Shown here: positions 32,963 to 62,682 of the stretch, one piece after another | Layout of the letters: the number at the start of each line of letters is the position of its first letter | Position numbering within the stretch: the stretch's first letter is position 1 | DNA from: an uncultured Maribacter sp. | GTDB taxonomy: Bacteria; Bacteroidota; Bacteroidia; Flavobacteriales; Flavobacteriaceae | DNA: 64,000 nt | Assembly (NCBI RefSeq): GCF_947500985.1 | Contig: NZ_CANMTX010000005.1 | Location: 62,001-126,000 of the forward strand | Direction of reading: 5' to 3' | Program-made: the position numbers and the translations under genes | The notes under the pieces: model-generated | What the model was told of the DNA's origin: nothing | What the model saw: the letters and a program-made list of their open reading frames with translations, nothing else | The model's database searches: none

Positions 32963-33979
32963 TTACTTAACATCATATAACTTCTTTGCTCTATTGACTC
33001 GTAGTGCAATACGCTTAATTAATCGCTCTGGCTGTAAAACCTTCATAGCTTCTCCGTAACCCAGTATAATTCGTTCTAACTCAAAATTCAATTTTACCTT
33101 AATACATATAACTATGCTACCGTCTTCATTTCTTTCTTCAATGCATTGCGAATGATGTAAAGGTTTTGTTTCAACGTATGGTGCGTGCCTTTGATGTACC
33201 CACAACTTTACATTACCTGCTCTTTCTCCTTGGTTTACAGTTACTCCAATTACATTCTTATAAAATTCATCTGCATTAAAATCTTCTTGAATATAAGGCT
33301 CAACAAAATTGTAATCAACACTTTTAATACGGTCTAGAGCTAGATTAACGACCCCTCTAGATTTTGCTCCTTTCCCAATTAGAAACCATCGATTATTGAA
33401 TTCTTTTAATAATATAGGATGAAACTGAATCAACCCAGACTGCTTTGCTTTAAATGATTGATACTCTATTGTTAATACTATTTTCTTCTGAATTGCTTGG
33501 TACAATTCATCTAACCAATGAAGCCCTTTTAAGTTCTCGTTTTTGTCTAAGTGAATGATTGAAGCTTGATGTGTTTTCTCTGTGTACACCTTATCTTCTA
33601 AACGTTGAATAATGCCCCCTAATTCAGAAAACAATGAAAAGTCTTTAAATTGTTTTAGCATTTCTACAGTCTCCGAAAGTACGTTCATATCATTTTCTGT
33701 TAAAGGAATATCAGTAATGGAATACTCATCCTCCTCGTACTTGTAATATTTCTTATCGTAAACTTTTATCGGTGCATTATAACCCAACTTATCGCTTCGC
33801 ATTAACTGAATATCCATTTGTACGGTACGCTTGCTTACATTGATTTCACGCCCCTCATATTCATACAAAGCATCTGAACAAGCTTCGATTAAATCATCTA
33901 ATGTCCATTGACGGTATTTATTCTGAAGACATTTATCGATGGTTTTATAACGGATAAGTGCATTTTTATTGATAGCCAT
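32963..33979 (-). CDS. WYL-domain transcriptional regulator
   Basis: A 338-residue YafY-like regulator. The N-terminal winged helix-turn-helix (~1-85) includes INVSKRTVQMDIQLMR. A WYL/ligand-binding region follows (~165-245), with HPILLKEFNNRWFLIGKGAKSRGVVNLALDRI, and a C-terminal WCX domain. WYL proteins sense nucleic-acid or nucleotide ligands and often control defence or RNA-repair genes. It is divergent from rtcB across a 165-base region holding two dyads, so it is the likely regulator of the repair locus. Confidence 0.9.
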   Translation of the reverse strand: MAINKNALIRYKTIDKCLQNKYRQWTLDDLIEACSDALYEYEGREINVSKRTVQMDIQLMRSDKLGYNAPIKVYDKKYYKYEEDEYSITDIPLTENDMNVLSETVEMLKQFKDFSLFSELGGIIQRLEDKVYTEKTHQASIIHLDKNENLKGLHWLDELYQAIQKKIVLTIEYQSFKAKQSGLIQFHPILLKEFNNRWFLIGKGAKSRGVVNLALDRIKSVDYNFVEPYIQEDFNADEFYKNVIGVTVNQGERAGNVKLWVHQRHAPYVETKPLHHSQCIEERNEDGSIVICIKVKLNFELERIILGYGEAMKVLQPERLIKRIALRVNRAKKLYDVK

Positions 33980-35551
<1,572 letters not shown>

Positions 35552-35563
35552 TTCAACCTAAAA

Positions 35564-35596
35564 TTTGGTTTGATTCCTAGAATTATCTCATATTTG
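35564..35596 (+). promoter_or_regulatory. Possible promoter of leader unit A
   Basis: A -7-like CATATTTG (35589-35596, one mismatch to TAnnTTTG) has TTTG at 35564-35567 (spacing 21) and at 35569-35572 (spacing 16). Neither is the ideal 19, so the call is tentative. It lies just after the first rtcB stop codon. Confidence 0.35.
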
Positions 35597-35634
35597 CATC
35601 ACAATAATAACAAAAACAAGAAAAATAGTACATT

Positions 35635-35700
35635 ATGCTAAATCATTTTAATCACATACCGGACGCTGTAAAGCTAGGATTGCATCGAATTGATGGGTAG
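35635..35700 (+). CDS. Leader peptide A (21 codons), predicted
   Basis: A short ATG ORF (begins MLNHFNHIPDAVKL) ending in TAG at 35698, 28 bases before an intrinsic terminator. Codons 9-11 contain GGACGCT, which can pair with the terminator's left arm, so translation of this ORF would decide which RNA fold forms. No run of one amino acid is present, which argues against classical amino-acid attenuation. Evidence is positional and structural only. Confidence 0.4.
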   Translation: MLNHFNHIPDAVKLGLHRIDG

Positions 35701-35756
35701 ATACTATTAAAAACAGATACATAACTAGAGCGTCCAAGAAATTGGACGCTTTTTTT
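35661..35756 (+). promoter_or_regulatory. Attenuator A: terminator with competing antiterminator
   Basis: The terminator is AGCGTCCAA (35729-35737), loop GAAA, TTGGACGCT (35742-35750), then a T-run to 35756. The competing pair is GGACGCT (35661-35667) with AGCGTCC (35729-35735), extended by CTAG (35674-35677) with CTAG (35725-35728). It would destroy the terminator. A ribosome moving through leader ORF A would block the antiterminator and favour termination. Confidence 0.6.
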
Positions 35757-35930
35757 ATGTATTTTTTTCAAGAATTCTCAAAATTCAAAAAGAATGCCAT
35801 TTGAAAGCTAAGCACTTAAAAAACAGCAAATTGTTGAAATATGCTGCTATCCGTTAAACAACGGACAGGAATTCCTATACCTAAAATTTTATATAAACAA
35901 TTGATAATCAATAAATTATAATTAATTTTA

Positions 35931-35962
35931 TTTGCATAATCTAAAAAGACCTTTTAGATTTG
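35931..35962 (+). promoter_or_regulatory. Promoter of leader unit B (TTTG / TAnnTTTG)
   Basis: TTTG at 35931-35934 and a perfect TAGATTTG at 35955-35962, spacing 20, fit the Bacteroidota housekeeping promoter. Transcription would start near 35968, giving a leader of about 170 bases to the next terminator. Confidence 0.65.
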
Positions 35963-36001
35963 CACCGCAATACAGCACATAACAATATTAAACTGAAGTA
36001 T

Positions 36002-36085
36002 ATGACTTTTTTAAACACATATCAGAATACGCTAAAGGCACCAAGTGCTTTAACTGCGTTGCTTCAGGACTTCCTATATACATAA
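36002..36085 (+). CDS. Leader peptide B (27 codons), predicted
   Basis: An ATG ORF about 34 bases after the predicted transcript start (begins MTFLNTYQNTLKAPS, ends DFLYT), stopping 20 bases before the terminator stem. Codons 10-20 form a stable hairpin (36029-36059). Codons 21-24 contain CTTCAGGACTT, the antiterminator's left arm. No amino-acid run is present. Its sequence is unrelated to leader A although the layout is the same. Confidence 0.45.
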   Translation: MTFLNTYQNTLKAPSALTALLQDFLYT

Positions 36086-36139
36086 ATCTTCATACGATTA
36101 TGATTAAAAGTCCGAAGCCTTAAAGTTTCGGACTTTTTT
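36029..36139 (+). promoter_or_regulatory. Attenuator B upstream of rtcB2-prfH
   Basis: The terminator is AAAAGTCCGAA (36106-36116) with TTCGGACTTTT (36127-36137) and a T-run to 36139. The antiterminator is CTTC-A-GGACTT (36062-36072) pairing with AAGTCCGAAG (36108-36117), ten base pairs with one bulge, which takes up most of the terminator's left arm. Just before it, ACGC/GCGT plus TAAA-GCAC/GTGC-TTTA form a hairpin at 36029-36059. This is the canonical layout of a transcription attenuator controlled by translation of leader ORF B. Confidence 0.65.
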
Positions 36140-36240
36140 ATGCCTATTAATTAAAGGCAAAATTTTCCGAGACATTTTATCAAATTAAGTATGGCTTTTC
36201 AAAAGTGGAACGGCCATTCTATTCTCTAAAATGAATTATC

Positions 36241-37632
36241 ATGGGAAAGAAATTAAGTGGAAAAGACCTAATAAAATTGGGCTTTCCAAAGAACAATACT
36301 ATCAATATTACTTTAGGTCAAATAAATAGGTATCACAAAAGAGTAAAAAAAGACAAGATATTAAGTGAAGCCAAAAAAGTGTTGTTGCATCCTGAAAACT
36401 ATAAGGGGGATGGTGTTTGGGGCAAAATTGCTGAAAGTTTATTAGACCCGGTAATAGTAAAAAAACAAGCGCTGAGTTCAGTACGAGCACCTTTTCATAT
36501 TTATGGCGAAAATGAAATTGAAGAGCAAGCAAAATACCAATTGTATGATGCTTTAAAACTTCCGATTTCTGTTGCTGGCGCTTTAATGCCCGATGCCCAT
36601 AGTGGTTATGGTTTGCCAATTGGAGGTGTTTTGGCTACCAAGAATGCGGTGATCCCATATGGGGTTGGTGTCGATATCGGTTGTCGAATGTGTTTAACAA
36701 TTTATCCAATACCGGTGTCATATATCAAAGGAAAGAAACACCAATTGGCAAATTTCCTTTCAGAGCATACCAAATTTGGAATGAGGGAAACTCACCAAAT
36801 AAAGCATGACCATGAAATTTTTGAGCGAGATGAATTTAAAAATATACCTCTCCTAAAAAGATTAAAGGATAAGGCATACAAACAATTGGGAACCTCTGGT
36901 GGTGGAAATCATTTCGTAGAATTCGGAAAAGTCACTATTACAGACAGCAAGAACGAATGGGGTTTGAAATTTGGTGAATATCTAGGTGTATTATCCCATA
37001 GTGGATCGCGAGGGCTAGGAGCCAACATTGCTAAGCATTACACTTATTTGGCAACAAAGCAATGTCCGTTACCAAGACACGTTCAACATTTAGCATGGTT
37101 AGATTTAAATACGCATGACGGGCAAGAATATTGGTTGGCAATGAATTTAGCGGGAGATTATGCAAAAGCATGTCATGATGATATTCACGAAAGACTTGCT
37201 AAGCTTTTAGGTGAAAAGCCCGTGGCTAAAATTGAAAACCATCACAATTTTGCTTGGAAACAAGAGGTAAATGGCGAAGAATGTATTGTCCATAGAAAAG
37301 GAGCAACACCAGCTGCGAAAGGTGAATTGGGAGTTATTCCCGGTTCCATGACAGCACCAGGTTACATCGTTAGAGGTTTGGGCAACAAGGAGAGTTTAAA
37401 TTCTGCTTCTCATGGTGCAGGAAGGCTTTTTTCAAGACGAAAGTGTAAAGAAACTTTTACGAGAAGTGAGATTAAGAAGCAACTAGACTCAAATGAAGTA
37501 ACCCTTATGGGTGGAGGAATTGATGAAGCGCCAATGGCTTATAAAGACATCAAAAAGGTCATGGCTAATCAACAAGAATTGGTTGAAGTAATCGGAACCT
37601 TTACGCCTAAAATAGTACGAATGGATAAGTAA
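36241..37632 (+). CDS. rtcB: RtcB-family RNA ligase (RtcB2, PrfH-associated type)
   Basis: A 463-residue RNA ligase. Canonical motifs are present: GVDIGCRM (metal site), GGGNHFVEFG, SHSGSRGLG, HRKGATPA, and the guanylylated histidine in SASHGAGRLFSRR. It is followed by prfH, the known partner of one RtcB clade. In that system PrfH releases ribosomes cut in the 16S decoding centre and RtcB reseals the rRNA. It sits downstream of two leader attenuators. A small hairpin ATGGC...GCCAT (36191-36216) lies just before the start, and an out-of-frame ATG at 36231 overlaps the start region. Confidence 0.92.
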   Translation: MGKKLSGKDLIKLGFPKNNTINITLGQINRYHKRVKKDKILSEAKKVLLHPENYKGDGVWGKIAESLLDPVIVKKQALSSVRAPFHIYGENEIEEQAKYQLYDALKLPISVAGALMPDAHSGYGLPIGGVLATKNAVIPYGVGVDIGCRMCLTIYPIPVSYIKGKKHQLANFLSEHTKFGMRETHQIKHDHEIFERDEFKNIPLLKRLKDKAYKQLGTSGGGNHFVEFGKVTITDSKNEWGLKFGEYLGVLSHSGSRGLGANIAKHYTYLATKQCPLPRHVQHLAWLDLNTHDGQEYWLAMNLAGDYAKACHDDIHERLAKLLGEKPVAKIENHHNFAWKQEVNGEECIVHRKGATPAAKGELGVIPGSMTAPGYIVRGLGNKESLNSASHGAGRLFSRRKCKETFTRSEIKKQLDSNEVTLMGGGIDEAPMAYKDIKKVMANQQELVEVIGTFTPKIVRMDK

Positions 37633-37738: not shown

Positions 37739-38431
37739 ATGGAAAAAATTATACAAATAACATCTGGTAGAGGTCCAGTAGAATGTGGCTGGGTAGTTGC
37801 CCAAGTACTTAAACGATTTTTGGAAGAAACCAAGATGAAAGGGCTAAAACATATCATAATACACCGAGAAAAAGGAAACCAAAATGGAACAGTTCAATCG
37901 GTGACTATTCGCTTGGCAGGAGAAAACCTTGAAGCCTTTTTAGCAACTTGGTTGGGAACCATTCAATGGATTGGTATCTCTACATTTCGAAAATACCATA
38001 AAAGAAAAAACTGGTTTATTGGAGTTTTTGAATTGAAGCAAATGGAAAACATGAATGTAAATGATAATGACATTTCTTTTCAAACTATGCGAAGTACGGG
38101 TCCTGGTGGTCAAAATGTAAATAAAGTAAACTCTGCGGTAAGAGCAATTCACAACCTTACTGGGGTTCAAGTAGTTACTATGGATAGCCGCTCACAACAC
38201 CAAAATAAAAAAATAGCAATTTCTAGATTGAAAGAAAAAGTAAACGAAGTTAATCTAGAGCAGTTAAAAATCAGGATGACAGATGAATGGGAGAATCATA
38301 TGAATCTTCAACGAGGAAACCCTATTCGGGTTTTTAAGGGAAAAGATTTTAAATATCAAAAAGAGAATAAAAGCTTTAAGCCAAAACGGCAAAAGCTAAA
38401 AAACGATTTAAAACAACAAAAATGGGACTAA
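37739..38431 (+). CDS. prfH: Peptide chain release factor homologue PrfH
   Basis: A 230-residue release-factor-like protein. The peptidyl-tRNA hydrolysis motif GGQ appears in RSTGPGGQNVNKVNSAVRA (about residues 118-136), with the usual basic C-terminus (QKENKSFKPKRQKLKN). PrfH lacks the stop-codon-decoding region of RF1/RF2 and acts on ribosomes damaged in the decoding centre, working with RtcB. It lies downstream of rtcB2 in the same direction and overlaps the TPR gene by 10 bases. Confidence 0.9.
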   Translation: MEKIIQITSGRGPVECGWVVAQVLKRFLEETKMKGLKHIIIHREKGNQNGTVQSVTIRLAGENLEAFLATWLGTIQWIGISTFRKYHKRKNWFIGVFELKQMENMNVNDNDISFQTMRSTGPGGQNVNKVNSAVRAIHNLTGVQVVTMDSRSQHQNKKIAISRLKEKVNEVNLEQLKIRMTDEWENHMNLQRGNPIRVFKGKDFKYQKENKSFKPKRQKLKNDLKQQKWD

Positions 38432-38950
38432 CAATAACAGACACCTATTACTTAAAGGCAAAGGCGGCATCTGATTACGATTGGGACGAAGTTTGTGAAT
38501 CACTAAATTATGCCTTGTCTTATGATGAAAACCACTGCGCAGCACTTTGTCTTTTAGGTAAAGTATATGGCGCAAACTTAAACCAATATGAAAAAGCCTT
38601 TTATTGCTTTGACAGAGTCATTGCAATTGATAGCCACTATCTGGGTGTTTATCCACTTTACGTTAAGTACTTAATTTGGGCTGATGAAATTGAAAGAGCA
38701 AATAAACTAATTGCTTTTTCCCTTACTTTAAAAGGGATATCAAAAGGAAATATATTTTGGCTTTCAGGCGTATGCGTTAGAAACTAAGGAAGCTTACAAA
38801 GATGCTCTGAAGTATCTTAAAAAAGCTAAAAAGCATTCATACAATGACGACTACTTCTCTTTTATAGAGAATGAAGAAAAAAGAATTAAAAAAAAGTTGA
38901 AATTGGATAAGCCCAAAGTAAAAAAGAAGAGAAAAAAGATAGATAAGTAA
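38422..38950 (+). pseudogene. TPR protein, frameshifted near its middle
   Basis: A small tetratricopeptide-like protein whose ATG overlaps the prfH stop. The first frame (38422-38787) holds TPR-like helices (ALSYDENHCAALCLLGKVYG, NQYEKAFYCFDRVIAID). After KGNIFWL the frame changes at about 38762-38764, where removal of one T restores QAYALETKEAYKDALKYLKK and a Lys-rich end (KVKKKRKKIDK) stopping at 38950. The combined length is about 175 residues. It is probably the third partner of the rtcB2-prfH unit. Mutation and sequence error are both possible. Confidence 0.7.
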
Positions 38951-61732: not shown

Positions 61733-61754
61733 AACCCTTATGCTATTGTAAACG

Positions 61755-61786
61755 AAAACGCCGAAATCTAAGATTTCGGCGTTTTT
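61755..61786. terminator. Terminator after the IorAB-type operon
   Basis: AAAACGCCGAAATCT (61755-61769) pairs with AGATTTCGGCGTTTT (61771-61785), followed by T. It also serves the convergent DUF6268 gene. Confidence 0.85.
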
Positions 61787-61803
61787 ATTTTCCTTTAGTA
61801 AAT

Positions 61804-62682
61804 TTATATCTTGAATCTTAAAACCGCTCTAAAATAACTTCTAGAGTGATTATCTATAGTCAGTAAGGTGTTGTTGCTACCGTCTTTTAATTTATTATTT
61901 AGACTAAAATTATAGGCAGCACGTAAATCTAATTGCAAATGATCCGTAAAATGATATTCGTACTGTAGACCACCGTTAATTAATGACATATTTATTATTT
62001 CTGCATATTCGTTGCCATTTACCAATGCACCATTTTGAATGTTAGAGGTAAAACCATCTAATTGGGTGTATAGTTTGAAGCGATGTTTTTCTGCAAGATG
62101 ATACTGTAAATTTGACTTTGGAATACCAATATTAAACGACCAATCAGGTCTAAACTTTTTGTAATAGCTAATAAACGGTAAAGGGAAAACATACCCCCTA
62201 TTTTGAGAATAAGATAGACCTACTATTAAACGAGAGGGCTTTTCTAAATCTTTTTCAAACTTTTTTATAAAAACCAGATCTCCTGAAAAAACAACATCTT
62301 CTGTTGATAAATGTTTTGCTGCATTATTTGTACTAATACCCGGCTGCAGACGTACTCCTAATCGCCACCCATTTTTTAAGGGTTTGGTAAAGCCAATAGT
62401 GAAGTCTAAAAGTTTAAAATCATTTAATAACTCCCTATCAAAAGGAAGCTCATCATCTTTAAAGCGAAGATGAACATTACTATAATCTACTCCTAAAAAT
62501 AAATACTGCCCTTCTTTCTTAAGTTTTACTGGATAATTGACAAGAAATCTTGATCGCGTATATTCTACATCTGACCCTTTATTAGGAATAAATGTAAAAT
62601 CCAAACGAGTCAAATCACTTAATTGCGCTTGTGCCGTAAAGCTAGTTATGAAAAGAAAAAATAATAAGAAATTAAACCGCAT
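61804..62682 (-). CDS. DUF6268-like outer-membrane beta-barrel protein
   Basis: 292 residues with a signal peptide (MRFNFLLFFLFITSFTAQA), then alternating hydrophobic/polar beta strands to a C-terminal aromatic-rich end (RSYFRAVLRFKI), typical of an outer-membrane barrel. Similar to DUF6268 proteins; function unknown. It is convergent with the IorB-like gene and lies downstream of mqo. Confidence 0.75.
   Translation of the reverse strand: MRFNFLLFFLFITSFTAQAQLSDLTRLDFTFIPNKGSDVEYTRSRFLVNYPVKLKKEGQYLFLGVDYSNVHLRFKDDELPFDRELLNDFKLLDFTIGFTKPLKNGWRLGVRLQPGISTNNAAKHLSTEDVVFSGDLVFIKKFEKDLEKPSRLIVGLSYSQNRGYVFPLPFISYYKKFRPDWSFNIGIPKSNLQYHLAEKHRFKLYTQLDGFTSNIQNGALVNGNEYAEIINMSLINGGLQYEYHFTDHLQLDLRAAYNFSLNNKLKDGSNNTLLTIDNHSRSYFRAVLRFKI

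Follow-up and report, generated by a model that had tools for sequence, protein, structure and literature searches.

The closest described system is the operon of PA5471 (armZ, of the RtcB family) and PA5470 (prfH) in Pseudomonas aeruginosa, the expression of which is set by the leader peptide PA5471.1; it is proposed that a 3:4 terminator forms when this leader is translated completely, and a premature stop at its codon 3 raises ArmZ, as described in the available portions of three reports (PMC12057347, PMC3516279, PMC13041342). In the available part of a 2025 review, this attenuation model is presented as proposed and in need of confirmation, and the sources, as far as available, deal with PA5471.1 in connection with the drug pump MexXY. 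RtcB2–PrfH protects E. coli against colicin E3 (PMC9223846, available sections), and for E. coli ribosomes cut by E3 the available text of another study gives initiation at ~75% of the control, with essentially no peptides longer than about eight residues being expected (PMC2615495).

The window, which is the whole stretch of DNA analysed here (positions 62001–126000 of contig C5 of genome G000; 64,000 nucleotides), has a WYL gene, rtcB1, two leaders, rtcB2, prfH and a TPR-like gene, in this order. It is probable that the second of these leaders, referred to as leader B, is a transcription attenuator of rtcB2–prfH that senses the position of ribosomes, with ribosomes cut in the decoding centre as the proposed trigger. 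The named genomes nearest to the window by RtcB2 are Flavobacteriaceae, for example Zobellia. The genes of the locus are as follows.

32963–33979, minus strand: WYL-domain gene
34145–35551: rtcB1
36241–37632, plus strand: rtcB2, RNA ligase (PF01139, 282.9 bits)
37739–38431, plus strand: prfH, peptide chain release factor H (TIGR03072, 229.3 bits, cut-off 166.65)
38422–38787, plus strand: TPR-like gene (TPR_11 match under its cut-off)

Relatives of the TPR-like gene sit behind copies of leader B at other loci. Immediately 5′ of rtcB1, at 34100–34129, there is a strong inverted repeat (GCTCTGCCGA/TCGGCAGAGC) without a T run.

All the elements from which a translation-sensing leader had been proposed in the original prediction (the promoter, the 27-codon ORF, the CTTC-A-GGACTT segment within it and the terminator stem) are present in their places. 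Together with region 1, they make up leader B as listed here.

35931–35962, plus strand: promoter, read from the sequence, of the Bacteroidota type by its consensus (TTTG at 35931–35934, 20 nt, TAGATTTG at 35955–35962)
35993–35999, plus strand: region 1, CTGAAGT, just 5′ of the uORF start; partner of region 2
36002–36085, plus strand: leader B uORF, 27 codons, MTFLNTYQNTLKAPSALTALLQDFLYT (ATG at 36002, TAA at 36083–36085)
36029–36059, plus strand: hairpin between regions 1 and 2, from the RNA fold
36062–36072, plus strand: region 2, CTTC-A-GGACTT (CTTCAGGACTT), the shared arm, whose partner is region 1 or region 3
36107–36118, plus strand: region 3, serving as left arm in the terminator and as 3′ arm in the antiterminator
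36125–36139, plus strand: region 4 with the T run, forming terminator 3:4, from the RNA fold and covariation

The stop codon of the uORF starts 11 nt beyond region 2. The terminator stem, at about 36106–36137 and followed by Ts, is missed by the pattern scan and is recovered by the RNA fold, which for leader B has an MFE of −37.2 kcal/mol (z −3.82), a value reached by 0/200 shuffles. The hairpin segment between regions 1 and 2 has a z of −1.48 in the window and a median of −1.3 over the 63 leaders that were aligned. When the window is searched with the 4227 Rfam families at their gathering scores, tRNA is the sole match, and for 35560–36260 at E ≤ 1 seven matches are obtained, all below their cut-offs, the best being Yfr10 with 29.4 bits against 43.

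The relatives of leader B were collected from several sources. TIGR03072 is matched above its cut-off in 22/299 genomes of the family, and besides the window, ~9.6 kb was taken around 20 of these PrfH loci, a further locus being covered by a 5.8-kb contig. With an alignment (A1) of 19 RtcB2 proteins, 80 named loci were obtained, which are the top 80 among at least 588, and PrfH is visible on the fetched DNA at 62 of the 80. A search pattern that combines a start codon preceded by GAAG, an ORF and a terminator built on a CGAAG/TTCGG core is matched at 50/80 named loci, to which a covariance model of leader B (R1, built from 63 rows) added further ones. Taking either a match to the pattern or an R1 score of 66 bits or more as a leader, 58/62 PrfH loci have one. 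At the other PrfH loci, L102 has a weak R1 match of 38.1 bits and no leader is found at L062, L078 and L084, two of which (L062 and L084) have less than 250 nt of DNA 5′ of rtcB2. Among the 18 loci without PrfH, a leader is found at L087 (by the pattern), L095 (72.5 bits) and L104 (50.4 bits), and weak R1 matches are seen at L106 (36.5 bits), L132 (33), L123 (30.9) and L108 (25.4). Some of the fetched loci have additional genes. At L034, L037, L039, L044 and L054 a protein of ~230 aa is encoded immediately 5′ of rtcB2, and at L034, L039 and L044 a small protein of the 98-aa type is encoded farther 5′; no Pfam family is matched by either (one example of each, the larger being searched as a 180-aa part). 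A gene between prfH and rtcB2 at L052 (7651–8226, oriented) encodes a product that, by eye, presumably resembles RNA 2′-phosphotransferase (Tpt1/KptA).

The resulting alignment (A2) has 63 distinct leaders, being the window, 16 copies from unnamed loci and 46 from named loci, with four duplicates (L063, L075, L092, L098) and matches shorter than 120 nt left out, and these align well. The GAAG, the ORF and the terminator core are imposed by the search pattern, so that their constancy in A2 proves nothing, whereas no such condition was set on region 2, on its frame or on the flanks that covary; the CTTC of region 2, which is absent from the search pattern, is constant in 63/63 leaders. With respect to the promoter, TAnnTTTG occurs within 120 nt 5′ of 39/63 leaders, where 50 single-base shuffles give 5.3 on average, and the combination of TTG and TAnnTTTG is found for 22/63 leaders, compared with 0.5 in such shuffles. 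R1 scores 118.7 bits at leader B of the window, well beyond what chance would give, the window being itself one of the 63 rows of the model. The next R1 match in the window (61752–61902, minus strand, 33.8 bits) is probably due to chance.

Three helices compete in leader B. Helix 1:2, between columns 13–19 and 87–93 of A2, is paired in 96.3% of the cells, with 52 two-sided cells, and its covariation of 0.254, compared with 0.074 in shuffles, is reached by 0/500 of these. Only 3/7 of its pairs vary, that many two-sided pairs being found in 235/500 shuffles, and its pair types are not exceptional (matched by 67/500 shuffles). The antiterminator helix 2:3 is paired in 93.8% of the cells with 41 two-sided cells, which is reached by 0/500 shuffles, and its pair types are likewise not exceptional (256/500). 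When helices 1:2 and 3:4 are counted jointly, 95.1% of the cells are paired and 80 are two-sided (0/500 shuffles), and when the partners are slid by 1–3 columns, pairing falls to ~20–60% in all three counts. These covariation scores may be inflated by kinship among the 63 leaders. Judged from the alignment, helices 1:2, 2:3 and 3:4 are mutually exclusive and conserved, with two-sided covariation in all three. Leader B has a leader ORF, an intrinsic terminator 5′ of the first gene and an exclusive antiterminator that uses the left arm of the terminator, as expected of an attenuator, and also the anti-antiterminator (1:2) of trp-type attenuators. The translation-sensing switch of the original prediction is supported in its in-frame uORF, its terminator and its exclusive antiterminator, but the third helix, between regions 1 and 2, had been overlooked.

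The length of the uORF is 24–28 codons among the 63 leaders, and its ATG is separated from region 2 by 51, 54, 57, 60 or 63 nt in 62/63, the exception being L067 (59 nt), where region 2 is out of frame. The distance from region 2 to the stop codon is also a multiple of 3 in 62/63, and the distances from GAAG to ATG and from the stop codon to region 3 have no such bias. Region 2 begins at codon 18–22 and codes for LR or LQ in 62/63 leaders. Between the start codon and region 2, the substitutions in 20 independent pairs are distributed over codon positions 1, 2 and 3 as 36, 40 and 47. Frame and length of the uORF are therefore kept with no clear third-position bias, and the peptide seems to be largely free, as far as can be read from these sequences; a sensor of ribosome position accounts for this more readily than an amino-acid sensor or an arrest peptide would. 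Conservation of the ORF and of both predicted stems in relatives had been named in the original prediction as the check to be made by alignment, and it is borne out here by the frame and by the two-sided covariation.

An amino-acid starvation attenuator, highly improbable in our judgement, would account for the overall anatomy of a leader-peptide attenuator, and Phe is indeed present in 62/63 uORFs, being at position 2 in 39. Control codons are not seen, as no residue doublet occurs in more than 8/63 uORFs and Phe is never doubled; the 63 uORFs have no Trp and little His, Cys or Asp, and the target genes are not biosynthetic. Almost as improbable is a reading in which the RNA is the binding site of a protein (PrfH, RtcB2 or the WYL regulator), or in which it mimics the decoding centre of rRNA and is recognised by the repair enzymes or by toxins; the mimic was set aside. 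The TGAAGT of region 1 in the window resembles, as we take it, a 16S decoding-centre strand, and GAAG is constant in region 1, although this was imposed by the search pattern. Only GAAG is shared in region 1 throughout A2, its constancy is also expected from one core pairing in three helices, and the conservation of the uORF frame would be left unexplained by such recognition.

The effect of ribosomes was modelled by folding each of the 63 leaders, cut just 3′ of region 3, with a ribosome footprint of assumed edges masked; this concerns equilibrium and not kinetics, for 63 related sequences. A value above 0.5 is obtained for the antiterminator in 63/63 leaders when the ribosome sits at the start codon or codon 5, and in 56/63 when it is in the middle of the ORF. 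With a ribosome at the stop codon, it exceeds 0.5 in 14/63 (edge at −15) or 0/63 (edge at −18). Full translation is thereby predicted to give termination, and early halting to give read-through. When no ribosome is present, the antiterminator is favoured in 59/63 leaders (RNA cut after region 3), and when the 3′ end is placed immediately past region 2, helix 1:2 is formed in 61/63. The untranslated RNA is thus on at equilibrium in this modelling and may be trapped by helix 1:2. The expectation that an untranslated leader forms the antiterminator, which belonged to the original prediction, holds at equilibrium, but helix 1:2 is formed first. An initial reading of this analysis, in which RNA without translation always terminates in the manner of trp, was weakened by the folding without a ribosome and is kept as a rival.

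According to this rival, leader B is a four-segment attenuator of the trp type, in which helix 1:2 holds region 2 in the absence of a ribosome and the terminator is formed, the switch being on only with a ribosome over region 1 or the early ORF. The covariation of helix 1:2 and its formation in the RNA that ends after region 2 are in agreement with this, as is the observation that ribosomes at both the start and the stop codon, when the edge is at 15 nt, lift the antiterminator from 14 to 47 of 63. This start-site effect is almost gone with an edge of 18 nt (4/63); moreover, once region 3 is out, helix 2:3 beats helix 1:2 at equilibrium in 59/63, and region 3 would find a free toehold on region 2. 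We regard the trp-type scheme as rather unlikely. It is possible that region 1 reads the occupancy of the start site, which in the folding depends on the assumed footprint.

In the position-sensing attenuator that is preferred here, a healthy ribosome would read through to the stop codon and mask region 2, with region 1 being able to take whatever part of region 2 stays free; region 3 would then pair with region 4 and transcription would stop. A ribosome that initiates and halts in the first codons, far short of region 2, would leave region 2 available for pairing with region 3 once this is made, and by this antiterminator 2:3 RNA polymerase would continue into rtcB2–prfH. The natural trigger would be ribosomes cut in the decoding centre, and other early blocks of elongation would act likewise. 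The location of region 2 at codon 18–22 is beyond the reach of E3-cut ribosomes, which is a suggestive match to damage sensing; the natural signal may be rRNA damage, or else drugs or starvation. A literature search of open-licence PubMed Central papers found no damage-sensing experiment in Bacteroidota.

Leader B and PrfH go together in genomes. In a sample of 395 genomes of the phylum, 27 are matched by R1 (E ≤ 0.001) and 28 have PrfH above the cut-off, and R1 is present in 26/28 genomes with PrfH and in 1/367 without it, in line with the tie to rtcB2–prfH that had been predicted; this sample is uneven, the 26 shared genomes being of 6 genera. The two PrfH genomes without an R1 match (G315 and G414) are of other families. 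In the family sample, R1 (E ≤ 0.01) is found in 61/299 genomes, including 21/22 with PrfH; the PrfH genome without a match (G079) has its prfH on a 5.8-kb contig, and many of the other 40 matched genomes have weak matches. Wherever both are present, the R1 match precedes prfH, sharing its contig and strand, by 0.3–3.9 kb in the family sample (21/21 cases) and by 1.7–3.6 kb in the phylum sample (26/26 cases). As R1 was built from relatives of the searched genomes, the sensitivity of these counts is flattered and their specificity is not. Judged by its position, leader B would control the rtcB–prfH operon. Short AT-rich ORFs and terminators are common, and the leader might on this account be a chance ORF 5′ of an ordinary terminator; this reading is refuted by the frame conservation, the covariation and the gene linkage, and we give it practically no weight.

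Copies of leader B are also found in front of other genes. R1 matches with at least 55 bits are present in 12/277 genomes of the family without PrfH, ten of which precede a TPR protein of one family, with rtcB1 (eight) and a Band 7 protein (six) within ~6 kb. Inspection covered 20 R1 places outside prfH loci, taken from the stronger matches, and 15 of these lie immediately 5′ of a TPR-family gene, in many cases together with rtcB1; the matches at L183 and L184 are weak and look like chance. In 14 of the 15 copies that precede a TPR gene, region 2 keeps the frame of the uORF (the exception is L180), and in seven TPR–rtcB1 leaders (L170–L176) region 1 lacks GAAG while the uORF and region 2 are kept. 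At L165 (G068, 124.8 bits), the copy precedes a PcfJ-like gene (PF14284 match), which is followed by rtcB2 and a TPR gene, so that a PcfJ-like RNA-repair partner is possible. At L166, a copy lies 5′ of a PcfJ-like gene whose product is related to the L165 protein; the ORF picked there by the script is out of frame with region 2. Another copy (at ~3001 of L168, from genome G023, 75 bits) precedes a GNAT acetyltransferase gene, the product of which has AAC(3)-I as its best NCBIfam match (87.2 bits, under the cut-off of 200). Aminoglycosides too act at the decoding centre.

These copies bear on the reading by which leader B is a generic sensor of translation stress, like the toiL and ABC-F leaders, such that any slowdown of early elongation induces and rRNA damage is one input among others. 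It is favoured by the copy in front of the AAC(3)-I-like gene and by a logic shared with toiL and with PA5471.1, the latter being induced by ribosome-targeting drugs according to the available portions of its reports. On the other side, PrfH is present in 26/27 leader-bearing genomes of the phylum sample, and the TPR genes behind most of the inspected copies indicate that the controlled genes are mostly for RNA repair. We consider this reading quite plausible, leaning slightly against it.

The first of the two leaders of the window, leader A, has a related layout.

35618–35764, plus strand: leader A, second attenuator-like leader, 5′ of leader B
35635–35700, plus strand: leader A uORF, 21 codons (19–21 codons in 25/25 aligned copies)
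35661–35667, plus strand: leader A region 2, GGACGCT, with complementarity to the left arm of the leader A terminator
35727–35752, plus strand: leader A terminator, AGAGCGTCCAAGAAATTGGACGCTTT, from the pattern scan and alignment A3

Leader A is found at 25/63 loci, 340–750 nt upstream of leader B (23 within 440 nt), by a search pattern that imposed the terminator motif; seven of the 32 candidates (L076, L079, L080, L081, L083, L086, L089) were dropped, as their stem trails an ordinary gene end. Its helix 2:3 is paired in 90.9% of the cells with 4 two-sided cells, so that covariation is modest and weaker than for leader B, and its region 2 is located 26 nt past the ATG in 19/25 copies. Because of this weaker covariation and the closeness of region 2 to the ATG, the logic of leader A may differ from that of leader B. 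When the 299 genomes are searched with a model of leader A (R2), the 13 best matches are all 344–559 nt upstream of an R1 match. To our knowledge, attenuators in tandem are unusual.

A leader conserved with RtcB2–PrfH across the Flavobacteriales, having a uORF that extends past the expected reach of damaged ribosomes, would make direct sensing of ribosome integrity testable, and R1 could be a marker for further RNA-repair genes, for example those for TPR, Band 7 and PcfJ-like proteins that follow other copies. Tentatively, and more doubtfully than the attenuator itself, one shared leader cassette, often in tandem as A then B, might run an RNA-repair regulon of Bacteroidota, with region 1 of leader B reading start-site occupancy by ribosomes that initiate and do not elongate, a signature of decoding-centre damage, and with a uORF that outlasts the reach of cut ribosomes of about eight codons; in that case, leader control of RtcB2–PrfH would have separate origins in several phyla. 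The observation behind the original prediction is confirmed and extended by the present analysis, and its interpretation is partly supported.

No described mechanism of this sort for RtcB–PrfH was known to the original prediction, but attenuation by PA5471.1 has been proposed in print for the P. aeruginosa operon in the available portions of its reports. As far as these portions go, both systems have an RtcB-family gene with prfH, a short leader ORF and a proposed 3:4 terminator upon complete translation, and stalling or a premature stop raises expression with PA5471.1, as is proposed for leader B. The PA5471.1 leader peptide has 13 aa, compared with the 24–28 codons of leader B, and the phylum is different; that ArmZ doubles as anti-repressor of MexZ is a feature of PA5471. 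The toiL uORF of E. coli topAI–yjhQ senses several kinds of ribosome stalling, as is proposed for leader B, with tetracycline stalling at its start codon, but according to the available text it works via translation and Rho, with no intrinsic antiterminator, and its target is a toxin–antitoxin pair (PMC12121999). The ABC-F leaders, for example vmlR, also tie drug challenge to expression by transcription attenuation, while in the available part of the source the genes, phylum and sequence are other than those of leader B (PMC9226507).

In E. coli, prfH is annotated as a pseudogene in K-12 and in strain ECO13, and an intact plasmid copy was therefore used for comparison. The rtcB2–prfH leader of this plasmid, pCP127 (L272, 1725–1858), has a 15-codon uORF 5′ of rtcB2, the end of which pairs with the SD strand, as region 1 does with region 2; its sequence is unrelated, no terminator is found in it by the script and R1 has no match there. 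In Aureibacter (L271), a short ORF is also located 5′ of rtcB2. For eight sources that cover six loci, more distant or proteobacterial (L239 with L226, L240 with L227, and L271–L274), the best R1 score is 14.1 bits (E 2.7). Leader control of rtcB2–prfH may thus recur in different forms. Biosynthetic attenuators of the trp type have four segments with alternative helices, as leader B has, but leader B differs from them in having no control codons and in its helix 1:2, which is weaker than helix 2:3 at equilibrium in 59/63 leaders. No report of the Bacteroidota leader was found in the search of open-licence PubMed Central papers or in Rfam. This kind of switch has already been proposed for the operon of P. 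aeruginosa, and the Bacteroidota leader would be a further form of it.
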